A DNA stretch of 50,198 nucleotides from Leptospiraceae bacterium (GTDB taxonomy: Bacteria; Spirochaetota; Leptospiria; Leptospirales; Leptonemataceae): positions 2,148 to 52,345 of the forward strand of contig JAGRNA010000018.1 of NCBI GenBank assembly GCA_020441005.1, written 5' to 3'. The notes beneath the pieces are model-generated. The model was not told where the DNA came from, ran no database searches, and saw only the letters and a program-made list of their open reading frames with translations. Position numbers and translations under genes: made by a program. Of the stretch, positions 36,922 to 50,198 are shown one piece after another (position 1 is the first letter of the stretch; each line of letters opens with the position of its first letter).

Positions 36922-37006
36922 TTTACCAACTTTCACCAGTAAAAACTACTGTCGCGCTAACCGCTTGTCAATGATTTCCAATCATAAACAACGCTGCGGC
37001 TGCGAG

Positions 37007-37045
37007 TTGGGCCCGTATTCCGCCTGCTGCAAACGCTTCAGCTAT
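37007..37045 (+). repeat. Diverged copy of the right-end repeat
   Basis: GCGAGTTGGGCCCG followed by CTGCTGCAAA at the same spacing parallels the 91-bp direct repeat near 49.86 and 50.12 kb, so related elements flank both ends of the accessory region. Confidence 0.45.
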
Positions 37046-37190
37046 AGACCAACTGCTTCTCCTGATGTGTCATACAGCCGCACTCCCTTTCCCTAATCCT
37101 GCCTACAAGTCGGGCTGCATCCTCTTTTGTCTTTTTTTGCCCAAATCAATCCAAAAATCATTGACTCAGCCCAATTCGTGCGAAACTATC

Positions 37191-37344: not shown

Positions 37345-39576
37345 ATGAGAAAAGCAATTCCATTTGTTTTTGTCTGCCTGGGTTCACTATGGAGCCGGCC
37401 AGTCGTAGAGTTAACACATTTTAATGATGCTCGTGATTTTCAAAATGGCCGTGCACGTTTATCACTATTTGGTAAATATGGCTTGGTAGACCGACGGGGT
37501 ATTTGCAAGTCTCGCTTTGACTATATATTCATTGATAGATTTAGCAACGGTCTTGCTCCGGCTTTACTCAGAGGTAAATGGGGCTATATTGATCGCAATG
37601 GTCAAACGATAATCTTACACCATTATAGTCAGGCCCGTCCTTTTTATCAGGGTCGGGCAGCAGTGGCTAAAAAAGAAAAGTGGGGGTATATTGATTTGAA
37701 CGGCAATCTCCTGATTGATATACAATTCCAGGAGGCGCGTGACTTTCACGAACAAATGGCTGCCGTTAAACGTAATGATAAATGGGGATTCATTGACACA
37801 AATGGCTCCATTGCCATTCCTTTTCAGTTTGAAAATGCATGGCATTTTTCAGAGGGTTTGGCTGCAGTACAGGTAAAGAACAAATGGGGATTCATTAATA
37901 GTGCAGGTCAAATAGTTATTGAGCCCCGTTTTAAAAATGAGACGAAGCATGGCGTTCAAGACACTCCGTCCTACAAAAAATACGTATTTCAAAATGGTGT
38001 CGCACCAGTTTCAGTAGGTGTGAGAATTCATGGCAATATTATTGAACAACATGCCTTGATCAATAAGGTCGGCGCTTTTGTAATCAAGCCGTCATTCCAA
38101 AAGGATTTCTATCGTTTTTCTGCCGGACTAGCTCCATTCGAAAGCAGCGAAAACGTATGGGGATTTGTGAACCACAAAGGAAAGATTGTAATCCCGCCAA
38201 AGTACTTTTGGGCTTATCCATTTGCTGAGGGTCTGGCGCAGGTAGCAGTGAAGCAAAAAGCAGGTGCTTATAAATACGGTTACATTGATCCCAAAGGAGA
38301 GATGATCATTCCGCCGGTGTTTGATAATGCATACAGTTTTCAGGAAGGACGGGCTTCAGTTAAGTTCAATGGACGCTGGGGTTATATAGACAGAACAGGT
38401 CAATTTTCTGTGTTGCCCAATGCCCGACAGGTCAAAAAGTTCAAAGAAGGCTTTGGCCGCATTGATTACAACGACTCCCGTCAAATTAATAGTGTGTTTT
38501 TTCCAACTACAACGTTTTTGCCTTCACATTCAGGTTTTGTCGATCGTTCCGGCAGATTATTTAAACTCCAGCATTCTGTTACAAAATGCGGACTAAATAG
38601 TGAAAGCAAGTCGCTCATTTTTGATGATGTCAAAGAGTTTAGCGAAGATATGGCCGCTGTTCAAAAAAACGATCTATGGGGATTTGTACACCGCAGTGGC
38701 CAGCTGCGAATCCCTTTTCAATATGAAGCTGTAGGTACAGCCTTTAATCAGGACAGGATGGCAGTTCAAAAAAACGGCAAATGGGGGTATATCAACCGCA
38801 AGGGCTACCTTGTCATTGGATTACAATATGATGATGCGAAAAGTTTTCAGGAAGGACTCGCAGCAATCCAAATCAATGGTAAGTACGGCTTTATTGACAA
38901 ATCAGGAAAGATCCTTATCCAGGCACAATTCGAAAGCGCACAATTCTTTTCCGAAGGACTCAGCCCGGTCAAAATAAAGGGCAAGTATGGTTATATCAAC
39001 AAAACTGGTAATGTTGTGATTCAGCCGAAGTATGTGTGGGCGTATCCATTTAGAGGTAAGCGGGCTGTTGTTCTGATGGACTGGGATTCATATGCCCTGA
39101 TTGACAATAACGGAAATTATGTCATAGAACCCGGAAATACAAAAATTACCGGGTTTGAGAGTAATTTGTCAGCTTTTCAAAGCAAGCAACAAGGAGCCGG
39201 TTTCATAAATCCGGATGGAAAGCTGGCAATTCCAATGCAGTATAAACAGGTCGGCTCCTTTAGCAACGGATTGACGAATGTGCAGCTTACAGACGGACGC
39301 TGGGGTTATATTGATCGCAATAATAGTATGGTGATTCCACCGCGCTGGCATGAAGCCCATAGCTTTAGTGAAGGATTTGCCCGGGTAATGCTAACGGTTC
39401 TGAATTTAGGTCCGCGCTATGGCTTTATCAATACACAAGGAGAATATCTTGTGTTTCCAGAATTTGATGACACTGGTTCTTTCAATAACGGTTTTGCCCC
39501 GGTAAGGAGCGGTCAAAAATTCGGTTTCATTGATACTAGAGGTCAATTATTAAAGATAGAGGATAGTAAATTATAG
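37345..39576 (+). CDS. Secreted WG-repeat protein with about 19 repeats
   Basis: 743 residues with a short signal peptide (AIPFVFVCLGSLWS). Almost the whole protein is WG (beta-rich) repeats: I count about 19 units with the W/Y-G-(Y/F)-I-(D/N)-x-x-G core, e.g. KWGYIDRNG, KWGFIDTNG, KYGYIDPKG, RWGYIDRTG, KYGFIDKSG, each preceded by an F-x-(E/N)-G-(L/R)-A segment. WG-repeat proteins are usually exported and thought to bind partners or peptidoglycan; no enzyme motif. DNA is much more AT-rich than the core genes. The stop TAG lies inside repeat copy B (TATAGGCACC). Confidence 0.9.
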   Translation: MRKAIPFVFVCLGSLWSRPVVELTHFNDARDFQNGRARLSLFGKYGLVDRRGICKSRFDYIFIDRFSNGLAPALLRGKWGYIDRNGQTIILHHYSQARPFYQGRAAVAKKEKWGYIDLNGNLLIDIQFQEARDFHEQMAAVKRNDKWGFIDTNGSIAIPFQFENAWHFSEGLAAVQVKNKWGFINSAGQIVIEPRFKNETKHGVQDTPSYKKYVFQNGVAPVSVGVRIHGNIIEQHALINKVGAFVIKPSFQKDFYRFSAGLAPFESSENVWGFVNHKGKIVIPPKYFWAYPFAEGLAQVAVKQKAGAYKYGYIDPKGEMIIPPVFDNAYSFQEGRASVKFNGRWGYIDRTGQFSVLPNARQVKKFKEGFGRIDYNDSRQINSVFFPTTTFLPSHSGFVDRSGRLFKLQHSVTKCGLNSESKSLIFDDVKEFSEDMAAVQKNDLWGFVHRSGQLRIPFQYEAVGTAFNQDRMAVQKNGKWGYINRKGYLVIGLQYDDAKSFQEGLAAIQINGKYGFIDKSGKILIQAQFESAQFFSEGLSPVKIKGKYGYINKTGNVVIQPKYVWAYPFRGKRAVVLMDWDSYALIDNNGNYVIEPGNTKITGFESNLSAFQSKQQGAGFINPDGKLAIPMQYKQVGSFSNGLTNVQLTDGRWGYIDRNNSMVIPPRWHEAHSFSEGFARVMLTVLNLGPRYGFINTQGEYLVFPEFDDTGSFNNGFAPVRSGQKFGFIDTRGQLLKIEDSKL

Positions 39577-39750
39577 GCACCGGGTCGGATTTCTGTCAAT
39601 TTGTTTCCATACCCTTAGACAGCGGTTATCGAGCGAAGTCGAGATGCAGGGACCACGGGGCTTTGATTTAGATTAGCCACTTGTACTGAGCGAAGCCGAA
39701 GTGAGGGATTTGGGGCGCACTTTTATTTATGAACGCGCACTAAAGTCCTG
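39570..39750 (+). repeat. Array repeat copy B
   Basis: Longest copy (~180 bp). It shares GGCACCGGGTCGGATTTC and the following ~14 bases exactly with copy A, and has the same GGGATTTGGGGCGCAC and GAACGCGCACTAAA blocks. Its centre holds two inserts, around 39622-39654 (ATCGAGCGAAGTCGAG) and 39680-39705 (CTGAGCGAAGCCGAAG). The stop of the WG gene is inside its first bases. Confidence 0.85.
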
Positions 39751-39958
39751 GAAAATTAGATAATATGCTGGCTTGTCACGAGTAAAGATTTCTAATTTAT
39801 ATATTTTTTTATAAATAAAATGCAACCTGATTCAGATGGCTCGATTATTTCCGCGACCTTGATTCGGCTCGTCTCAACTCCACTCGCATCAACTCCAGAC
39901 TATGAATTTAACCGCAAAAAACGGGTGACCGACTGGAGCAACCGGATAACAGTGCGCC
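39751..39958. other. Leader region upstream of the GNAT gene
   Basis: About 210 bp, AT-rich at first (TATATATTTTTTTATAAATAAAA near 39800). No gene and no clear promoter pair. Together with copy B it fills the gap after the WG-repeat gene. Confidence 0.4.
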
Positions 39959-40444
39959 ATGATTATTCGAAGGGCATGTTTGTCAGACGAGTCCTCTATT
40001 CATGCTGTATTGGTTGAGTCCTACTTTGAATTTGCTGCAAGAATCGGTTCGGATAACTGGACGACGATGCGTTCCCGACTGGAAAAGGCCGCAGAATATG
40101 CCGGTCTGGAAACATTTTATTTAGCTGAAATAAAGGTCCATTTGGTTGGTTTGATTTCCTATGCAGCGCCATTTAAAGGAACTACACCACGAATTCCAGA
40201 GGATTGGGCTTCGATTCGTTTCCTGGGAGTTTTGCCATCTGCACAGGGTCAAGGGATCGGTCGCCTGCTGACCGAACAATGCATAGTAAATGCCAGGGAA
40301 GACAGGGCAAAGTCAATCGGTCTTTTTACCAGTGAGGCCATGATTGCCGCCCAAAAACTGTATACGAATCTTGGCTTTTGTCGCGTATCAGAAATCGATT
40401 CGCATTTCGGCTTGCGTTACTGGTTATACAAGCTTGATTTATGA
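39959..40444 (+). CDS. GNAT family N-acetyltransferase
   Basis: 161 residues, the typical single-domain GNAT length. Motif A is visible as IRFLGVLPSAQGQGIGRLL (the Q/R-x-x-G-x-G/A acetyl-CoA loop), with the C-terminal AAQKLYTNLGFCRV motif B. It starts MIIRRACLSDE, the usual GNAT entry. The only clearly cytoplasmic product in the repeat array. The acceptor substrate is unknown. No good ribosome site immediately before the ATG. Confidence 0.85.
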   Translation: MIIRRACLSDESSIHAVLVESYFEFAARIGSDNWTTMRSRLEKAAEYAGLETFYLAEIKVHLVGLISYAAPFKGTTPRIPEDWASIRFLGVLPSAQGQGIGRLLTEQCIVNAREDRAKSIGLFTSEAMIAAQKLYTNLGFCRVSEIDSHFGLRYWLYKLDL

Positions 40445-40457
40445 GCTTTGTATGTGC

Positions 40458-40940
40458 TCAATACTTGAAAATCCGCTGAAACAATACTCTCAAATCCTGG
40501 TCCAGGCTATTGACAATCCTGGTATAGCCAACGCGATCGCCTTTCAGGACTGGCTGTATGTTCCATTCCAGGGGCCAGTCATTTTGCAAGCCGCAAAAAC
40601 CCTCAAGATTCAGAACATTTCTTTTGATCTGCCAGACCCTGGTCTGCAATTCACCGCCGGATACGGTGTTCAAATACTTTTCGTCCTGCTCCAGTTCAGG
40701 CAGGATCAGATTTACTATTAGCATGATAGTATTCAGATAAATACCGGTGTGATAGCATAACTCGGAATCTCCCCCCTTACGTTCCAGGGTTTCAGAAAGC
40801 GGCATATAAAGAAAACTGACCGAAGTGGCTAATTCAGAAAGCTTTGCTGATTTGGCAAGATCCTGGGCGGGATTGGCGTGTAAAAATCCATTGGTGCAAA
40901 AGATGATTAAGAGCCAAACTTGAAGATATTTTCTGAACAT
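40458..40940 (-). CDS. Small secreted protein of unknown function
   Basis: 160 residues with a signal peptide (VWLLIIFCTNGFLHA). The mature part is largely helical, with one Cys pair candidate (ELCYH, GFCGLQ) and many hydrophobic residues (IYLNTIMLIVNLILPELE). It is opposite in strand to the other array genes and converges with the GNAT gene, sharing the module between repeat copies B and C. No family recognised. Confidence 0.55.
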   Translation of the reverse strand: MFRKYLQVWLLIIFCTNGFLHANPAQDLAKSAKLSELATSVSFLYMPLSETLERKGGDSELCYHTGIYLNTIMLIVNLILPELEQDEKYLNTVSGGELQTRVWQIKRNVLNLEGFCGLQNDWPLEWNIQPVLKGDRVGYTRIVNSLDQDLRVLFQRIFKY

Positions 40941-40969
40941 GCCGAATTACCTGTTATTGCAAATAATGA

Positions 40970-41131
40970 ATGACCGAACTAATGAATTTATATCGGCCAA
41001 TTTTACAATCCCGTTTTGGACTCAGACAAAATAATGGTTTGTTACCAGAATTCCCTGAATTTATTGATCAGCTTATCGATTCGACATTGACAGGCATAAA
41101 AAACAGGGATAGTAACACAGACTTTTGCTAA
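40970..41131 (+). CDS. Possible small protein or gene remnant (53 residues)
   Basis: The ATG at 40970 directly follows an in-frame TGA and runs to a TAA at 41129-41131. The product (MTELMNLYRPILQSRFGLRQ, then NNGLLPEFPEFIDQLIDSTL and a short tail) has a protein-like composition but no known family. It may be the remains of an older gene in this module. It ends 30 bp before repeat copy C. Confidence 0.3.
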   Translation: MTELMNLYRPILQSRFGLRQNNGLLPEFPEFIDQLIDSTLTGIKNRDSNTDFC

Positions 41132-41160
41132 AGCCGGCCAAATCCATCTTACTATCAGGT

Positions 41161-41276
41161 AAATTACAGGCGCCGTGTCGATTTCAGGTCAGTTCTTTTC
41201 TCTTTAGGAGCATTGATCCAGATTGGCCAGGGAATTCGGGGCGCATTTCAAATAATGAACTCGCACTAAATTCCTA
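41161..41276 (+). repeat. Array repeat copy C
   Basis: Short form without a central insert: AAATTACAGGCGCCGTGTCG, ATTTCAGGTCAGTTCTTTTC, GATTGGCCAGGGAATTCGGG, GCGCATTTCA, then ACTCGCACTAAATTCCT. It is the most diverged at the 5' block. Confidence 0.8.
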
Positions 41277-41333
41277 GAAAATCGGATGATAATAGATTCG
41301 ACATTCAGGAAGCGTTTGGGGAAACTGAACTGA

Positions 41334-41936
41334 ATGAGAGGGACTATGCGGTATTCTATAGCGTTGCTGTTCATGGTAATCGTGCTGCTGGGAGGGTGTA
41401 ATCCGGCGGTAGCTGAGAGCTACGCAGTTGTGCGTGATGGCTTGCCATTTTACGAACAAAAGACGGCCGATAGCCGCATGCTTCGGCTGATACCTTACGG
41501 TGGTAAGGTCGAACTCGTCGAAAAAAGCGGCGAATGGACCGAGATCCTTTTTTACGGCGAGTCAGGGTTTGTTCGTTCATCTGGCCTTTCTAATAAGGTG
41601 GTTTATTCTGAGCCCTTGCTGAGGGGAACGTATTTCGAGCATCACGAAAAGCTCGGTTCGGGAACGCAACTTCTTGAGCTGCGGCCAGATTCTCAAGAGT
41701 TCAGGTTTACGTTGAACTTCTGCGGGAGTGGCGAGGATTTGACCGGTCGTTACGAAATATATGCGCCGTTGTGGCATTCCCCCGACCTCTTCAGTCTGCG
41801 TCTTGTCCACACCAGTGCGCGGGTACAAAATCCGATTCTCTTTGAAATCTTCGGAGAGAATCGATTGAAACTGATTACGCCGATCGATTCTGCCTGTGCG
41901 CTGCAGGGTGCGGAATATGTCAGGAAGCAAGAGTGA
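41334..41936 (+). CDS. SH3-domain lipoprotein
   Basis: 200 residues (196 from the ATG at 41346). The signal ends in lipobox LGGC (Cys22). The mature N-terminus is a bacterial SH3-like domain: SYAVVRDGLPFYEQKTADSRMLRLIPYGGKVELVEKSGEWTEILFYGESGFV, with the GxVR/W-x-x-I...GfV features. The second half is a ~100-residue domain I do not recognise, with two Cys. Probably anchored in an envelope membrane and bound to cell wall or protein partners. GC content is higher than its array neighbours. The stop is 5 bp before repeat copy D. Confidence 0.75.
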   Translation: MRGTMRYSIALLFMVIVLLGGCNPAVAESYAVVRDGLPFYEQKTADSRMLRLIPYGGKVELVEKSGEWTEILFYGESGFVRSSGLSNKVVYSEPLLRGTYFEHHEKLGSGTQLLELRPDSQEFRFTLNFCGSGEDLTGRYEIYAPLWHSPDLFSLRLVHTSARVQNPILFEIFGENRLKLITPIDSACALQGAEYVRKQE

Positions 41937-41940
41937 TGTA

Positions 41941-42055
41941 AAATTATAGGCACCGGGCCGATTTCAGGTCAATTCTTTTCTCTCTAGGGCATTGATCAAG
42001 ATTGGCCAGAGGATTTGGGGCGCACTTCAGCCACTGAATGCGCACTGAATTCCGG
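41941..42055 (+). repeat. Array repeat copy D
   Basis: Cleanest short copy. Inner inverted repeat GGTCAAT(T)CTT / AAGATTGGCC. The 3' end folds as GCGCA-(C)-TTCAG, loop CCA, CTGAA-TGCGC (42020-42043), a 10-bp stem with one bulged C. Begins with AAATTATAGGCACCGGG right after the SH3 lipoprotein gene. Confidence 0.85.
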
Positions 42056-42186
42056 GAAAACAAAGCTTTAATACATAGTAAAACCTAATGTAAAGTCTTA
42101 AGAATTTAAAAGAGTGCTGGGCCAGACATTCTGCCTGGTGTGAATAAAACTTGCCAGTTATTTTGAATTACAGATACTGTTTTTTT

Positions 42187-43722
42187 ATGAAATCAATATC
42201 CATATTAATTTTTTGCATTAGTTCGGCTTTCTGCGGCTTATATGCTCAGGAGCAAGGACCTGCTAATTACAGTCAGGCTTATGATGTATACTGGCAAGCA
42301 CATAAGGCCTTCGCGCAAAATCAGCACGAAAAAGCCATGCAACTGCTGAAAAAAGTTGAAGCATATACTGAAGTAAAGCCGGAGCATAAAAACTTTTTCG
42401 ATCATGGTTATCGCAATTTTTCTTTAATAGATATGGTCGAAAAGCATCGGGATTTGGGAAAAATCCAGGCTGATACGATTCACAAAGTTCTGGTTTTGTA
42501 TATCATGAAAACTGACATTAAATTTCGTAAGCAGCATATTCATAAGTCTTTCACTCCGGAGTTGAAGGACACGGCCTATATATCGCAGGAAATCTGTAAG
42601 AAATATATGGAAGTCATGAGTGGGGGCAAACTGTCCCTGGAATTTGACCGCATGGATTTGAATTCTGTTTTAACTGGATTGGATGCTTTTGGCTATAAAG
42701 GTCCAAGTAAAGCTCCTATGGAGACGGTGCACTCCAGATTGGAATCATTGCAACCTTATCCCGGTGAGCTGTTATTAGAAAAGTATAATGAATACGACAC
42801 CTTTATGTTCTATTATCACAGCGGGGGATTAAGTCTGCCCAATGGCGGAGGAGCAACAGCTGTGGGCGGCAGTCTGAATTTCTATTTTACTCCCTATGGT
42901 CTGAGCGGACCGCGACGTGGTCGCCTGATGGTTTCCGAAAGACTGATCAATAAACCCGGCACCCTGTTTCATGAGTTTTTTCATACCATAGAGCAGCGAT
43001 ATGGAATTCAGCCGGGTCATGGATTCTGGCCACATTTACGTAAAAATTTTCCTGAATGGAAAGGCGAAGGTGAATTTGATTACTATCGCTACCACTTTGG
43101 AAAAATCGCAAAAACTGCCGGATTTGAAAAATTCGAATTTCATGAAAGCTGGCCATCGAATGCTACCAAGACACAGTTTTCAGAAATGCACCAGAAAATG
43201 CGTCGGATCCCGATGACTGATTTGCAGAAAGCCGAGTCCCTTTTTATAAAAGCCCAGGAGTCCTATGTTCATGGCAATAAGGATGCCAAAAAATTGCTCT
43301 ATCGAGTCATCAAACTGAATCCTTATCATTACAGAGCTTTGTATTATCTTACAATATTGGAAAACACAGATAAAAATTCCGATCTGGCATTTGAACTCAT
43401 CCGGAGAGCATATAAGATTAACCCCTATGACAGTCTGATCTGTTACTGGATGGGAGTAAAACACTTTCATATTAGGGAACTGGACGAATCTATAAAGTAT
43501 TTGTCAGAATCTTTAGCAAACGATCCTGTTTATGATTCGGCCTGGCAATACAGGGGTTTTGTTCATTATCAAAAAGGTGAATATAATCAGGCACTCGCTG
43601 ATTTCAAAAGCTGTCTGGAAAAAAGCGATCGTTTTCGTAATTGGATTACTGAATTTCTCGAGGGAAGGCAGAAAAGTGGAGATTTGGAAGCTGGGGAAAT
43701 GTTGGAAAAATTATCACTGTAA
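42187..43722 (+). CDS. Secreted TPR protein with HExxH metallopeptidase-like motif
   Basis: 511 residues from the ATG at 42187; the longer frame would need a TTG. The signal peptide (SILIFCISSAFCGLYAQ) is cleaved near residue 21. A helical region (~22-80) is followed by a ~250-residue central domain containing YYHSGGLSLPNGGG and LFHEFFHTIEQRYG, in which HEFFH fits the zinc-binding HExxH of metallopeptidases. A third ligand is not certain (E or H in GHGFWP or EFDYYRYHF). C-terminal TPR units span ~350-500 (ALYYLTILENTDKNSDLAFELI..., AWQYRGFVHYQKGEYNQALADF). No ribosome site seen. Confidence 0.7.
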   Translation: MKSISILIFCISSAFCGLYAQEQGPANYSQAYDVYWQAHKAFAQNQHEKAMQLLKKVEAYTEVKPEHKNFFDHGYRNFSLIDMVEKHRDLGKIQADTIHKVLVLYIMKTDIKFRKQHIHKSFTPELKDTAYISQEICKKYMEVMSGGKLSLEFDRMDLNSVLTGLDAFGYKGPSKAPMETVHSRLESLQPYPGELLLEKYNEYDTFMFYYHSGGLSLPNGGGATAVGGSLNFYFTPYGLSGPRRGRLMVSERLINKPGTLFHEFFHTIEQRYGIQPGHGFWPHLRKNFPEWKGEGEFDYYRYHFGKIAKTAGFEKFEFHESWPSNATKTQFSEMHQKMRRIPMTDLQKAESLFIKAQESYVHGNKDAKKLLYRVIKLNPYHYRALYYLTILENTDKNSDLAFELIRRAYKINPYDSLICYWMGVKHFHIRELDESIKYLSESLANDPVYDSAWQYRGFVHYQKGEYNQALADFKSCLEKSDRFRNWITEFLEGRQKSGDLEAGEMLEKLSL

Positions 43723-43793
43723 GAGAACAGTATATCAATAAGGCTGAATGATTCTCTCCTGCTCAGAAAATAACCAGGAAAATTATTAATGAT

Positions 43794-43933
43794 AAATTAT
43801 AGGCACCGGGTCGATTGTAGGTCAATTCTTTTCTCTAAAGGGGGCATTGGCACTTCGACGAGCTCAGCGGAACTCCAGATTGGCCAGGGGATTCGGGGCG
43901 CACTTAAGATACTGAACGCGCACTAAATTCTTA
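43794..43933 (+). repeat. Array repeat copy E
   Basis: AAATTATAGGCACCGGGTCG opening, then GGTCAATTCTTTTCTCT, a central insert CACTTCGACGAGCTCAGCGG (43851-43870), GATTGGCCAGGGGATTCGGG and GAACGCGCACTAAATTCTT. Starts about 70 bp after the preceding stop. Confidence 0.85.
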
Positions 43934-44000
43934 GAGAATACTGAAGGAAAAACCAAAAATATCATACAAATCCAGGAAAGCTTATCGATCGCGAAACTCA

Positions 44001-45407
44001 ATGCTCAGGACATCTATACTTTTTAGCTTTATTATTTCTTTTATAGTATTGAATAACGTCGGTCCGCTTCATGCTCAATCCTCAAATTGGGCACAGGCCT
44101 ACGCTTTCTTGAAAAAAGGCGACTGTGAAAATGCGATTCCGCATTTGCAGCGCGCCGTTGAGGCCCAGGAGCCAGTGACTCATATTTATATTAATCTGCA
44201 TGCCTGTTACTATAAAGCCGGTCGTCATCATGAGAGTGTAGCGGTGGCTTTATCGGGTACCCAGCGTTTCCCTGGGGACGAGTCCATGCGCAAATATCTC
44301 GCTTTGGCCAGGCATGGTCTGGGATGGCAATACATGCGCGAGCAAAAGATCGGCCTTGCGCGTGAGCAGTTTGCTCAGGCTCTTGAGTTGCAGCCGGATC
44401 ATGCGGACATCATGGCGGCCTTTGGCATAACTCTCCTGCGGAGTTCCGATAGCAGCGACGTGCACCAATCGATGGATTTGCTTTACCAGGCTCGCAAGAA
44501 ATCACCGGATACCGATTATATTCAGAACAATCTGATGGCGGCCTATTATAAGTCGCTGCAGCTACACGTAAAACATAAAGAATATGACGAGGCCGACACT
44601 TTAATTGATCTAATATACAATGATCGATCAGAGCATCCGGAAATCTATTTACGCGGTGCGAAAAGTGAGCTGGCAGTTAGCGATATGCTAGATGAACTTA
44701 CGGCTGGTCCCTTCATGATCGCTGCGCGAGCCCTGGAGGATAAACATTCTCTAACTGAGCTAGCCACCTGCATGCAATCGGTCATGGAAAAATGGCCCAA
44801 TCTTTACCGATTGCGCCATTGGTATGGTGTGGCAGTAACCAAGGCTGGCGATGCCAGGCGTGGCCATGCCCTGCGTAAGCAGGCCTATGGTGATTATAGG
44901 CGGATAGTTCAGCCAAAGGAGCACCCTCTACTCCTGGAAGTGCCGCTGCGTGGATGGATATATCCCTGTACAAAACCCGATTCAGATTTGTTTTCGCATT
45001 CGGGACTTTTTCAAAACGCTACGGATTACACCCATGCCACCGAAACAAGTTTACAGAATCTATCATATGAGAAGCCGGTTTATGCTCCCATTGACGGAGT
45101 TTTAGTCGAGGTTGATAACACTCACCCAACGGATGCCAGGGTGATCATCCAAATTCAAAGTGGTATAAAAGTTGAGCTGATCCATTTGAAAGCTGGTAGT
45201 ATTAAGCTCAGGAAAGGAGAGCATGTAAAAACCGGGCAATTTTTAGGCCTCCTGGGCTGGAAAGAGAATGCCCATCTGCATATGCACGTTTGGGGTCTGC
45301 ATGGCGTGACTATTCCTTATCGCTACAAACGCTTTCAAACCAAAAATGGGCAAGCAAAGAATAATCAAAGCCCCAAGCGATTAGAATTGTTTTACTATAA
45401 TAAGTAA
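44001..45407 (+). CDS. Secreted TPR protein with C-terminal LytM/M23-like domain
   Basis: 468 residues with signal peptide ending near PLHAQ|SS. TPR units at ~28-290 include AQAYAFLKKGDCENAIPHLQRAVEAQ and LAREQFAQALELQPDHADIM. The C-terminal domain (~325-440) follows the M23 layout: NATDYTH, PVYAPIDGVLVEVD, VELIHLKAGSIKLRKGEHVKTGQFLGLLG, HLHMHVWG. The HxH ligand pair is kept as HLHMH. The first His of the H-x(n)-D pair is not obvious before NATDY, so zinc binding and activity are uncertain. It could cut or merely bind peptidoglycan. The stop TAA is the first codon of copy F. Confidence 0.75.
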   Translation: MLRTSILFSFIISFIVLNNVGPLHAQSSNWAQAYAFLKKGDCENAIPHLQRAVEAQEPVTHIYINLHACYYKAGRHHESVAVALSGTQRFPGDESMRKYLALARHGLGWQYMREQKIGLAREQFAQALELQPDHADIMAAFGITLLRSSDSSDVHQSMDLLYQARKKSPDTDYIQNNLMAAYYKSLQLHVKHKEYDEADTLIDLIYNDRSEHPEIYLRGAKSELAVSDMLDELTAGPFMIAARALEDKHSLTELATCMQSVMEKWPNLYRLRHWYGVAVTKAGDARRGHALRKQAYGDYRRIVQPKEHPLLLEVPLRGWIYPCTKPDSDLFSHSGLFQNATDYTHATETSLQNLSYEKPVYAPIDGVLVEVDNTHPTDARVIIQIQSGIKVELIHLKAGSIKLRKGEHVKTGQFLGLLGWKENAHLHMHVWGLHGVTIPYRYKRFQTKNGQAKNNQSPKRLELFYYNK

Positions 45408-45521
45408 ATTACAGGCACCGGGTCGATTTGCTGTCAATTTCTTTCCAAAAACGGGTCCTTGACTAAAATTGGCCAAGGGATTTGGGGCGCACTTTATTCA
45501 TGGATGAGCAAAGAATTCCTG
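45406..45521 (+). repeat. Array repeat copy F
   Basis: GTAAATTACAGGCACCGGGTCG opening overlaps the stop of the TPR-LytM gene. CAATTT / AAATTG inner inverted repeat, no central insert, GGGATTTGGGGCGCACTT kept. The 3' hairpin has decayed (ATGAGCAAAGAATTCCTG). Last copy found; none follows the next gene. Confidence 0.85.
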
Positions 45522-49851: not shown

Positions 49852-49942
49852 GCGCAGCGTCAGCGAGTTGGGCCCGCAATTTTCTTGCTGCAAATACGCC
49901 TGTATGGACAAACCGGCCCCCGCGCCAGGGATGCGCAGGGCC
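49852..49942 (+). repeat. 91-bp direct repeat, left copy
   Basis: Begins GCGCAGCGTCAGCGAGTTGG and ends GCCAGGGATGCGCAGGGCC. Matches 50108-50198 at 90 of 91 positions; the single difference is G at 49906 against T. Confidence 0.95.
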
Positions 49943-50107
49943 TGGTCTGCCACAGGCAGACCGCAGCGCTAGCGAAGTGCTTCGACAAGCTCAGCAACCA
50001 CCCGTAGCAGCCCGGTGCCGGTCGGTTTTTTTTAAACAAATACACAGTATTTGATAGACTGCATGGGTGCGCTGTGAAGCCAGGTGGACAGGCGGATTGC
50101 CTGTTCA

Positions 50108-50198
50108 GCGCAGCGTCAGCGAGTTGGGCCCGCAATTTTCTTGCTGCAAATACGCCTGTATTGACAAACCGGCCCCCGCGCCAGGGATGCGCAGGGCC
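50108..50198 (+). repeat. 91-bp direct repeat, right copy (reaches window edge)
   Basis: Near-identical to 49852-49942, 256 bp downstream of it. The repeat may extend past the window, so its true length is unknown. Confidence 0.95.

Follow-up and report, generated by a model that had tools for sequence, protein, structure and literature searches.

Transposases of IS91 elements in the strict sense have two catalytic tyrosines (YxxxY) and those of ISCR elements have one, and ISCR elements gain genes through copies of the whole element lying beside them. Reports on transposition of the IS91 type place its start at the element's right end and its stop either at the left end or at any ter-like site, and for IS801 right-end fragments of 229-679 nt transpose and 290-1431 nt of upstream DNA can be picked up (PMC3189936). 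The ends, oriIS and terIS, have been described as forming secondary structure (PMC13393415), and ISCR1 is associated with variable genes and with outward promoters on the oriIS side, no ISCR transposition having been shown as of 2018 (PMC6218425). ISCR and IS91 elements are blamed for the spread of resistance and virulence genes, and few experiments address how neighbouring DNA is acquired. Here, we analyse a stretch of 50,198 nucleotides from a Leptospiraceae bacterium (assembly GCA_020441005.1, contig JAGRNA010000018.1, positions 2,148 to 52,345; "the window" is this whole stretch), which holds an array of six plus-strand copies (A-F) of a ~122-bp repeat, R, at 37.2-45.5 kb (contig code C70). 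We favor a model in which a rolling-circle transposon of IS91/ISCR-like type (HUH, Pfam Y2_Tnp) has R as its right-end (oriIS-side) unit and the arrays arose by one-ended transposition, a reading to which we assign a probability of roughly 0.68.

The repeat as a probable transposon end unit

The connection between R and a transposase comes from other loci of the same genome, a 4.36-Mb assembly of 304 contigs that is ~90% complete. Nucleotide, profile and covariance searches found ~25 copies and relics of R in it, clustered at C70 (6), C282 (4), C25, C81 and C61, with lone copies elsewhere, and a leader, L, lies before the first R at each of these five clusters. At C282 a transposase gene (L036 12058-13083; Pfam Y2_Tnp, 70.5 bits, cut-off 20.9) precedes L-R, and at C25 a transposase relic does. 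The segment tnp-L-R1 is homologous between the two loci, and this homology ends exactly at the right edge of R (L036 11618, L037 6952). The Zn_Tnp_IS91 domain scores 25.3 bits in the genome's own copy, just below the cut-off, and 54.2 in the related genome G029. A motif NPHVH (NPHIH in one) is kept across five relatives, and the tyrosine motif QYxAxG, with one conserved Tyr and a Gly at +4, is present in 5/5 aligned sequences. Because a single tyrosine is conserved, the predicted enzyme is ISCR-like and not IS91 proper, and we class the transposase by its sequence as IS91/ISCR-like without filing it as strict IS91.

The same architecture recurs in relatives. Four related genomes carry the same transposase family followed by a 97-126-bp unit of their own, arranged head to tail with genes between, and in relatives homology 3' of tnp stops at the right edge of a ~126-bp unit. 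In G029, three 126-bp units stand in tandem after tnp, and further units occur 0.6, 2.5 and 4.2 kb farther on (5589, 7508 and 9241), all on one strand. The G029 units are 99.6% identical, the intervening DNA has 43-50% GC compared with 54-55% in the chromosome outside, and a truncated MGS-domain (purH-like) gene runs into the right edge of one unit. G030 has tnp and then spaced units, one of them 3.3 kb past the first; G019 has tnp and then three units; and G004, which belongs to the same family as the genome studied here, has ~97-bp units arrayed in C88 and C3. Unit left edges agree over three families, reading AAATTTAAGC in G004, AAATATAGC in G029, G030 and G019, and AAATTATAGGC in R. The recurrence of this layout in several relatives suggests that transposons of this type use their end unit to build gene arrays, and the G029 array suggests that its units were recently active. 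The three tandem units of G029 (L090 118-497) are near-perfect, start right after the transposase gene and are nearly identical to the spaced ones. A tandem repeat in G026 (L093) is probably repetition of coding sequence and was not used as a unit array.

The R core is ~122 bp long, and 13 aligned copies average 77% pairwise identity. It forms two consecutive plus-strand hairpins, HP1 and HP2 (RNAalifold -11.2 vs -3.7 +/- 2.0 in column-shuffled alignments); the plus-strand fold is more stable than the minus-strand fold in 13/13 copies, and 86% of the base-pair cells are kept, true covariation being weak. This pair of hairpins agrees with the secondary structure expected in the end region of an IS91/ISCR-like transposon. 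Palindromes resembling repetitive extragenic palindromes (REP; CTTCGACnnGCTCAG type) are found in the HP1 loop, in the HP2 loop and between the hairpins in copies A, B, E, C282d, C200 and C25b, and a further insert breaks HP1 in E and C282d. A role as intrinsic terminator was rejected, the hairpins having no consistent T-tract after them, as was a plus-strand promoter role for L, for which the spacing is unsuitable.

Joint movement of genes and R is indicated by comparison of loci. The last 30 codons of a gene together with R are common to C25 (copy C25b) and C61 (C61b), with a shared internal deletion and 68% identity over 279 bp; the homology stops at the right edge of R, and the flanks differ on both sides. 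The paralogous segments C25a and C282a are likewise homologous up to the right edge of R and unlike past it. On these alignments, at least one block of gene end plus R has been copied between loci. The R copies themselves also exchange sequence, because the last 136 bp are 100% identical in C200 and C25b and a pairwise-homoplasy test (PHI) gives p<0.001 for recombination among copies; the recombination is scattered, and a mosaic reading with a fixed crossover site between the halves of R was unsupported. A 752-bp block (88%) common to C25 (L037 16398-17146) and C200 (L041 7236-7987) stands in swapped order relative to the 136-bp stretch, which indicates that a rearrangement took place recently at R or close to it.

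We propose that the HUH transposase would nick at the right edge of the unit and that replication would proceed left through it, sometimes over-running into upstream DNA. The product, either a bare R or an upstream gene plus R, would then be inserted beside an existing right edge, and repeated rounds could yield L-R-gene-R-gene-R arrays with constant units, a single orientation and variable genes. A gene that ends at R would survive since the left edge of R supplies stops.

Several observations weigh against the one-ended transposition model. Both edges of R are sharp, the left as much as the right, and a sharp left edge is not required by one-ended capture alone; it suggests a left terminus built into the unit as well, and movement of bare units therefore probably accounts for some copies. 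The overall similarity of R to the G029 unit is not significant (87/1000 shuffles score as high), so we equate R with the units of relatives by position, size, orientation, edge motif and architecture. R was found in no other genome searched: it was not found in 30 relatives, and nothing was detected in GTDB genomes or viral contigs (one exact pattern each) or in plasmids. No clear target tetranucleotide is seen beside R in its own genome; in G029 and G030 the tetranucleotide after units is GAAC at some and otherwise TAAA, TAAG or CGAG, compared with a GAAC/CAAG-like target. Both tnp-bearing loci lie in one duplicated segment, the C282 transposase looks N-terminally short, and C70, C81 and C61 have L-R with no transposase. 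Finally, some degenerate copies are antisense to the gene that they abut. Degenerate copies also lie between tandem paralogs (L153 6796-8030, L039 12531-13644); one such pair begins MKRILQELPVWFSKGF, and the other is a DUF2147 pair. The first 6 kb of the C282 contig (L036 1-6000) have 66-69% GC vs ~50% beyond, possibly a chimeric join or foreign DNA.

Gene ends and the left edge of the repeat

The arrays of R lie in AT-rich DNA (~40-50% GC) in a genome of ~55% GC. Features of the window array are as follows, in window coordinates.

36989..37033, plus strand: S repeat, immediately left of L
37080..37182, plus strand: leader L, the transposon sequence to the left of the first R, with five copies in the genome and visible in an alignment of upstream regions; joined without a break to the 3' region of tnp at C282 and C25
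37183..37328, plus strand: R copy A, which opens the array; its HP1 loop carries a hairpin insert
37345..39576, plus strand: WG-repeat protein gene (Pfam PF14903, 538 bits), A-B segment, 42% GC
39568..39756, plus strand: R copy B, with two hairpin inserts; provides the TAG stop of the WG gene
39959..40444, plus strand: GNAT acetyltransferase gene (Pfam PF00583), B-C segment
40458..40940, minus strand: secreted-protein open reading frame, antisense, without family, B-C segment
41161..41282, plus strand: R copy C
41334..41936, plus strand: SH3-domain lipoprotein gene (Pfam PF08239), C-D segment
41941..42060 (start 41940/41941), plus strand: R copy D, beginning 3-4 nt past the SH3-gene stop
42187..43722, plus strand: TPR protein gene, D-E segment, 40% GC
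43793..43939, plus strand: R copy E, 70 bp past a stop; HP1 carries an inserted hairpin on its 3' side
44001..45407, plus strand: TPR + peptidase M23 gene, E-F segment
45405..45527, plus strand: R copy F; the TPR-M23 gene stops at its first codon, TAA
45607..47646, plus strand: gene past the last R, without family
49852..50198, plus strand: S repeat, two copies 256 bp apart (49852-49942, 50108-50198), reaching the contig end

Repeat S (GCGCAGCGTCAGCGAGTTGGGCCC...) is thus present on both sides of the window array; elsewhere it adjoins a truncated R at C81 and precedes the transposase at C282 and C25, and it may be the transposon's other end region.

The initial annotation had taken the coincidence of repeat boundaries with stop codons as a sign that gene and repeat travel as one unit. 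Two of the junctions on which it drew are exactly as described: the TAG that ends the WG frame is the TAG of TATAGG in copy B, and the TAA that ends the TPR-M23 frame is the first codon of copy F (TAAATTACAGG). For the SH3 lipoprotein gene the closeness of stop and repeat held, the spacing being 3-4 nt and not the 5 bp claimed. Among the copies that it left out, E follows its stop at the distance listed above, and neither A nor C has a sense gene before it: A, which stands behind a leader of ~75-105 bp, is separated by 637 bp from an antisense gene, and an antisense gene starts 219 bp from C.

The tight stop-to-repeat spacing expected genome-wide gave way, once mapped, to a broad distribution, -10 to +332 over the ~25 copies and relics, which is largely the outcome that the annotation itself had named as refuting its reading. 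The near distances from the left edge of R to a sense stop are -10 (B), -10 (C81b), -3 (F), +3 (D) and ~+11 (C25b); the farther ones are 42, 61, 70, 71, 105, 198 and 332, and about half of the copies have no sense gene on their left side. Four copies within -9..+10 of a stop exceed a uniform null (5.1% of allowed positions), with a binomial p of 0.007 (n=16) to 0.036 (n=25) that varies with which copies are counted. The left edge of R, TAAATTATAG, holds TAA and TAG stops in two of the three frames, so a gene fused to R ends there almost automatically. Given the broad distances and these built-in stops, stop coincidence alone does not show unit mobility. In G029, units lie at least 33 bp past stops or adjoin antisense genes. 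Joint travel of gene and repeat stands instead on the gene-end block shared by C25 and C61, the C25a/C282a breakpoint and the arrays of relatives, in which DNA of foreign appearance separates units behind a Y2_Tnp transposase, and the mobile unit would be a transposon end joined to upstream DNA that varies, rather than a cassette delimited by the stop codon. The TPR-M23 gene was not truncated by R, because a full-length paralog at C200 (44% identical) terminates no more than two residues away from that position; no homologs of this gene were found in GTDB genomes.

Alternative explanations

The alternative that fares best, and that we nevertheless consider unlikely, is that R is a non-autonomous miniature element, moved in trans and inserting alone between genes, so that no genes are captured and the AT-rich islands are merely tolerant of insertion. 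The sharpness of both edges fits this idea, as do bare tandem units (two copies abut at C282 with zero spacer, and three units stand in tandem in G029), the broad stop distances, the copies antisense to neighbouring genes and the published movement of right-end IS801 fragments on their own (PMC3189936). However, insertion of R alone does not account for the gene end that accompanies it at both C25b and C61b, for the switch in gene content exactly at its right edge between paralogous segments, for the MGS-domain gene fragment that runs into a unit's right edge in G029 or for the strong head-to-tail clustering.

A second alternative, in which we place little confidence, is that R acts as a regulatory leader RNA, or as a structured element of the REP kind, and was spread by ordinary duplication and homologous recombination, the arrays reflecting shared regulation. 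The conserved two-hairpin fold, the recombination within R described above and the sense gene start that most good copies have at most ~200 nt downstream are consistent with such a role. So is a near-consensus sigma-70 promoter on the minus strand of the left edge, TTGAC[A/C]-18-TATAAT, which points left and matches at 11/12 or better in 11/18 copies and at 12/12 in copy B. At B, D, E and F, however, this promoter would transcribe antisense into the preceding gene, and because it is no better kept in copies with a divergent gene we did not make it the main explanation of R. In addition, R has no Rfam match, which removes a known RNA family from consideration, and the transposase-linked unit arrays of relatives account for the repeat without regulation. 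The genome has no Y1_Tnp or REP-associated tyrosine transposase (RAYT); a bacterial interspersed mosaic element (BIME) or other REP derivative, or one of IS200/IS605, was rejected on the lack of a PF01797 (Y1_Tnp) match in this ~90% complete genome, the same search being positive in 5/14 control genomes.

The weakest alternative, an integron-like array in which R is a folded site for a tyrosine recombinase and the cassette is a gene plus R, would fit the head-to-tail, mostly single genes, the position of R at 3' ends, the leader before the first R, the structured site and the islands, but it is largely refuted, and integron membership ruled out, by the absence of an integron integrase (no TIGR02249 match over cut-off in 31 genomes, the genome itself and 30 relatives), by the lack of canonical attC ends (R''/R', RYYYAAC/GTTRRRY) in R, by a fold that favors the top strand with no bottom-strand hairpin preference and by the attachment of the relatives' arrays to a Y2_Tnp transposase. 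One tyrosine recombinase related to integron integrases is encoded at C276 (L056 1754-3421); its scores of 118 + 91 bits fall below cut-off, it includes a KPDAN repeat tract, and similar genes occur in most relatives.

Relation to known systems

If the transposon-end model of R is correct, it describes a second, integrase-free route to integron-like gene arrays. Arrays of the G029 type would be a natural record of successive captures, with different foreign DNA between near-identical units, from which unit borders, target and capture polarity could be read in sequence. More tentatively, and with the odds against it, we raise the idea that, in several genera of one bacterial class, single-Tyr HUH (ISCR-like) transposases run a widespread, undescribed integron-like system of gene accretion, in which a 97-126-bp end unit with a fixed left edge, AAATnnnAGC, serves to add foreign genes next to the element step by step, each gene with one unit. 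A search of the open-licence literature turned up no account of arrays in which bare IS91/ISCR end units alternate with genes.

Among the closest described systems are IS91 and IS801, which share with the present elements a Y2_Tnp HUH transposase, a unit on the right-end side downstream of tnp, and right-end fragments and upstream DNA able to move (PMC3189936), as sequence comparison suggests here. They differ in that here an end unit of ~125 bp is reiterated head to tail with genes between, and in the single Tyr (QYxAxG). ISCR elements similarly have variable, often foreign genes on the oriIS side and outward promoters near oriIS (PMC6218425), whereas here genes are separated by the terminal unit alone, and the near-consensus promoter faces leftward, in the direction of tnp. 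Correia-type elements and miniature inverted-repeat transposable elements (MITEs) are, like R, short, dispersed and structured, with a promoter at one edge; unlike them, R has no clear terminal inverted repeat or target duplication, and its arrays are tied to a rolling-circle transposase. Integrons and clusters of attC sites lacking integron-integrases (CALINs) resemble the arrays in their head-to-tail, mostly single genes and in a structured site of ~100-125 bp, often near a stop codon. Here, in contrast, there is no IntI and there are no canonical attC ends, segments also contain antisense or truncated genes, and the enzyme is a HUH transposase.

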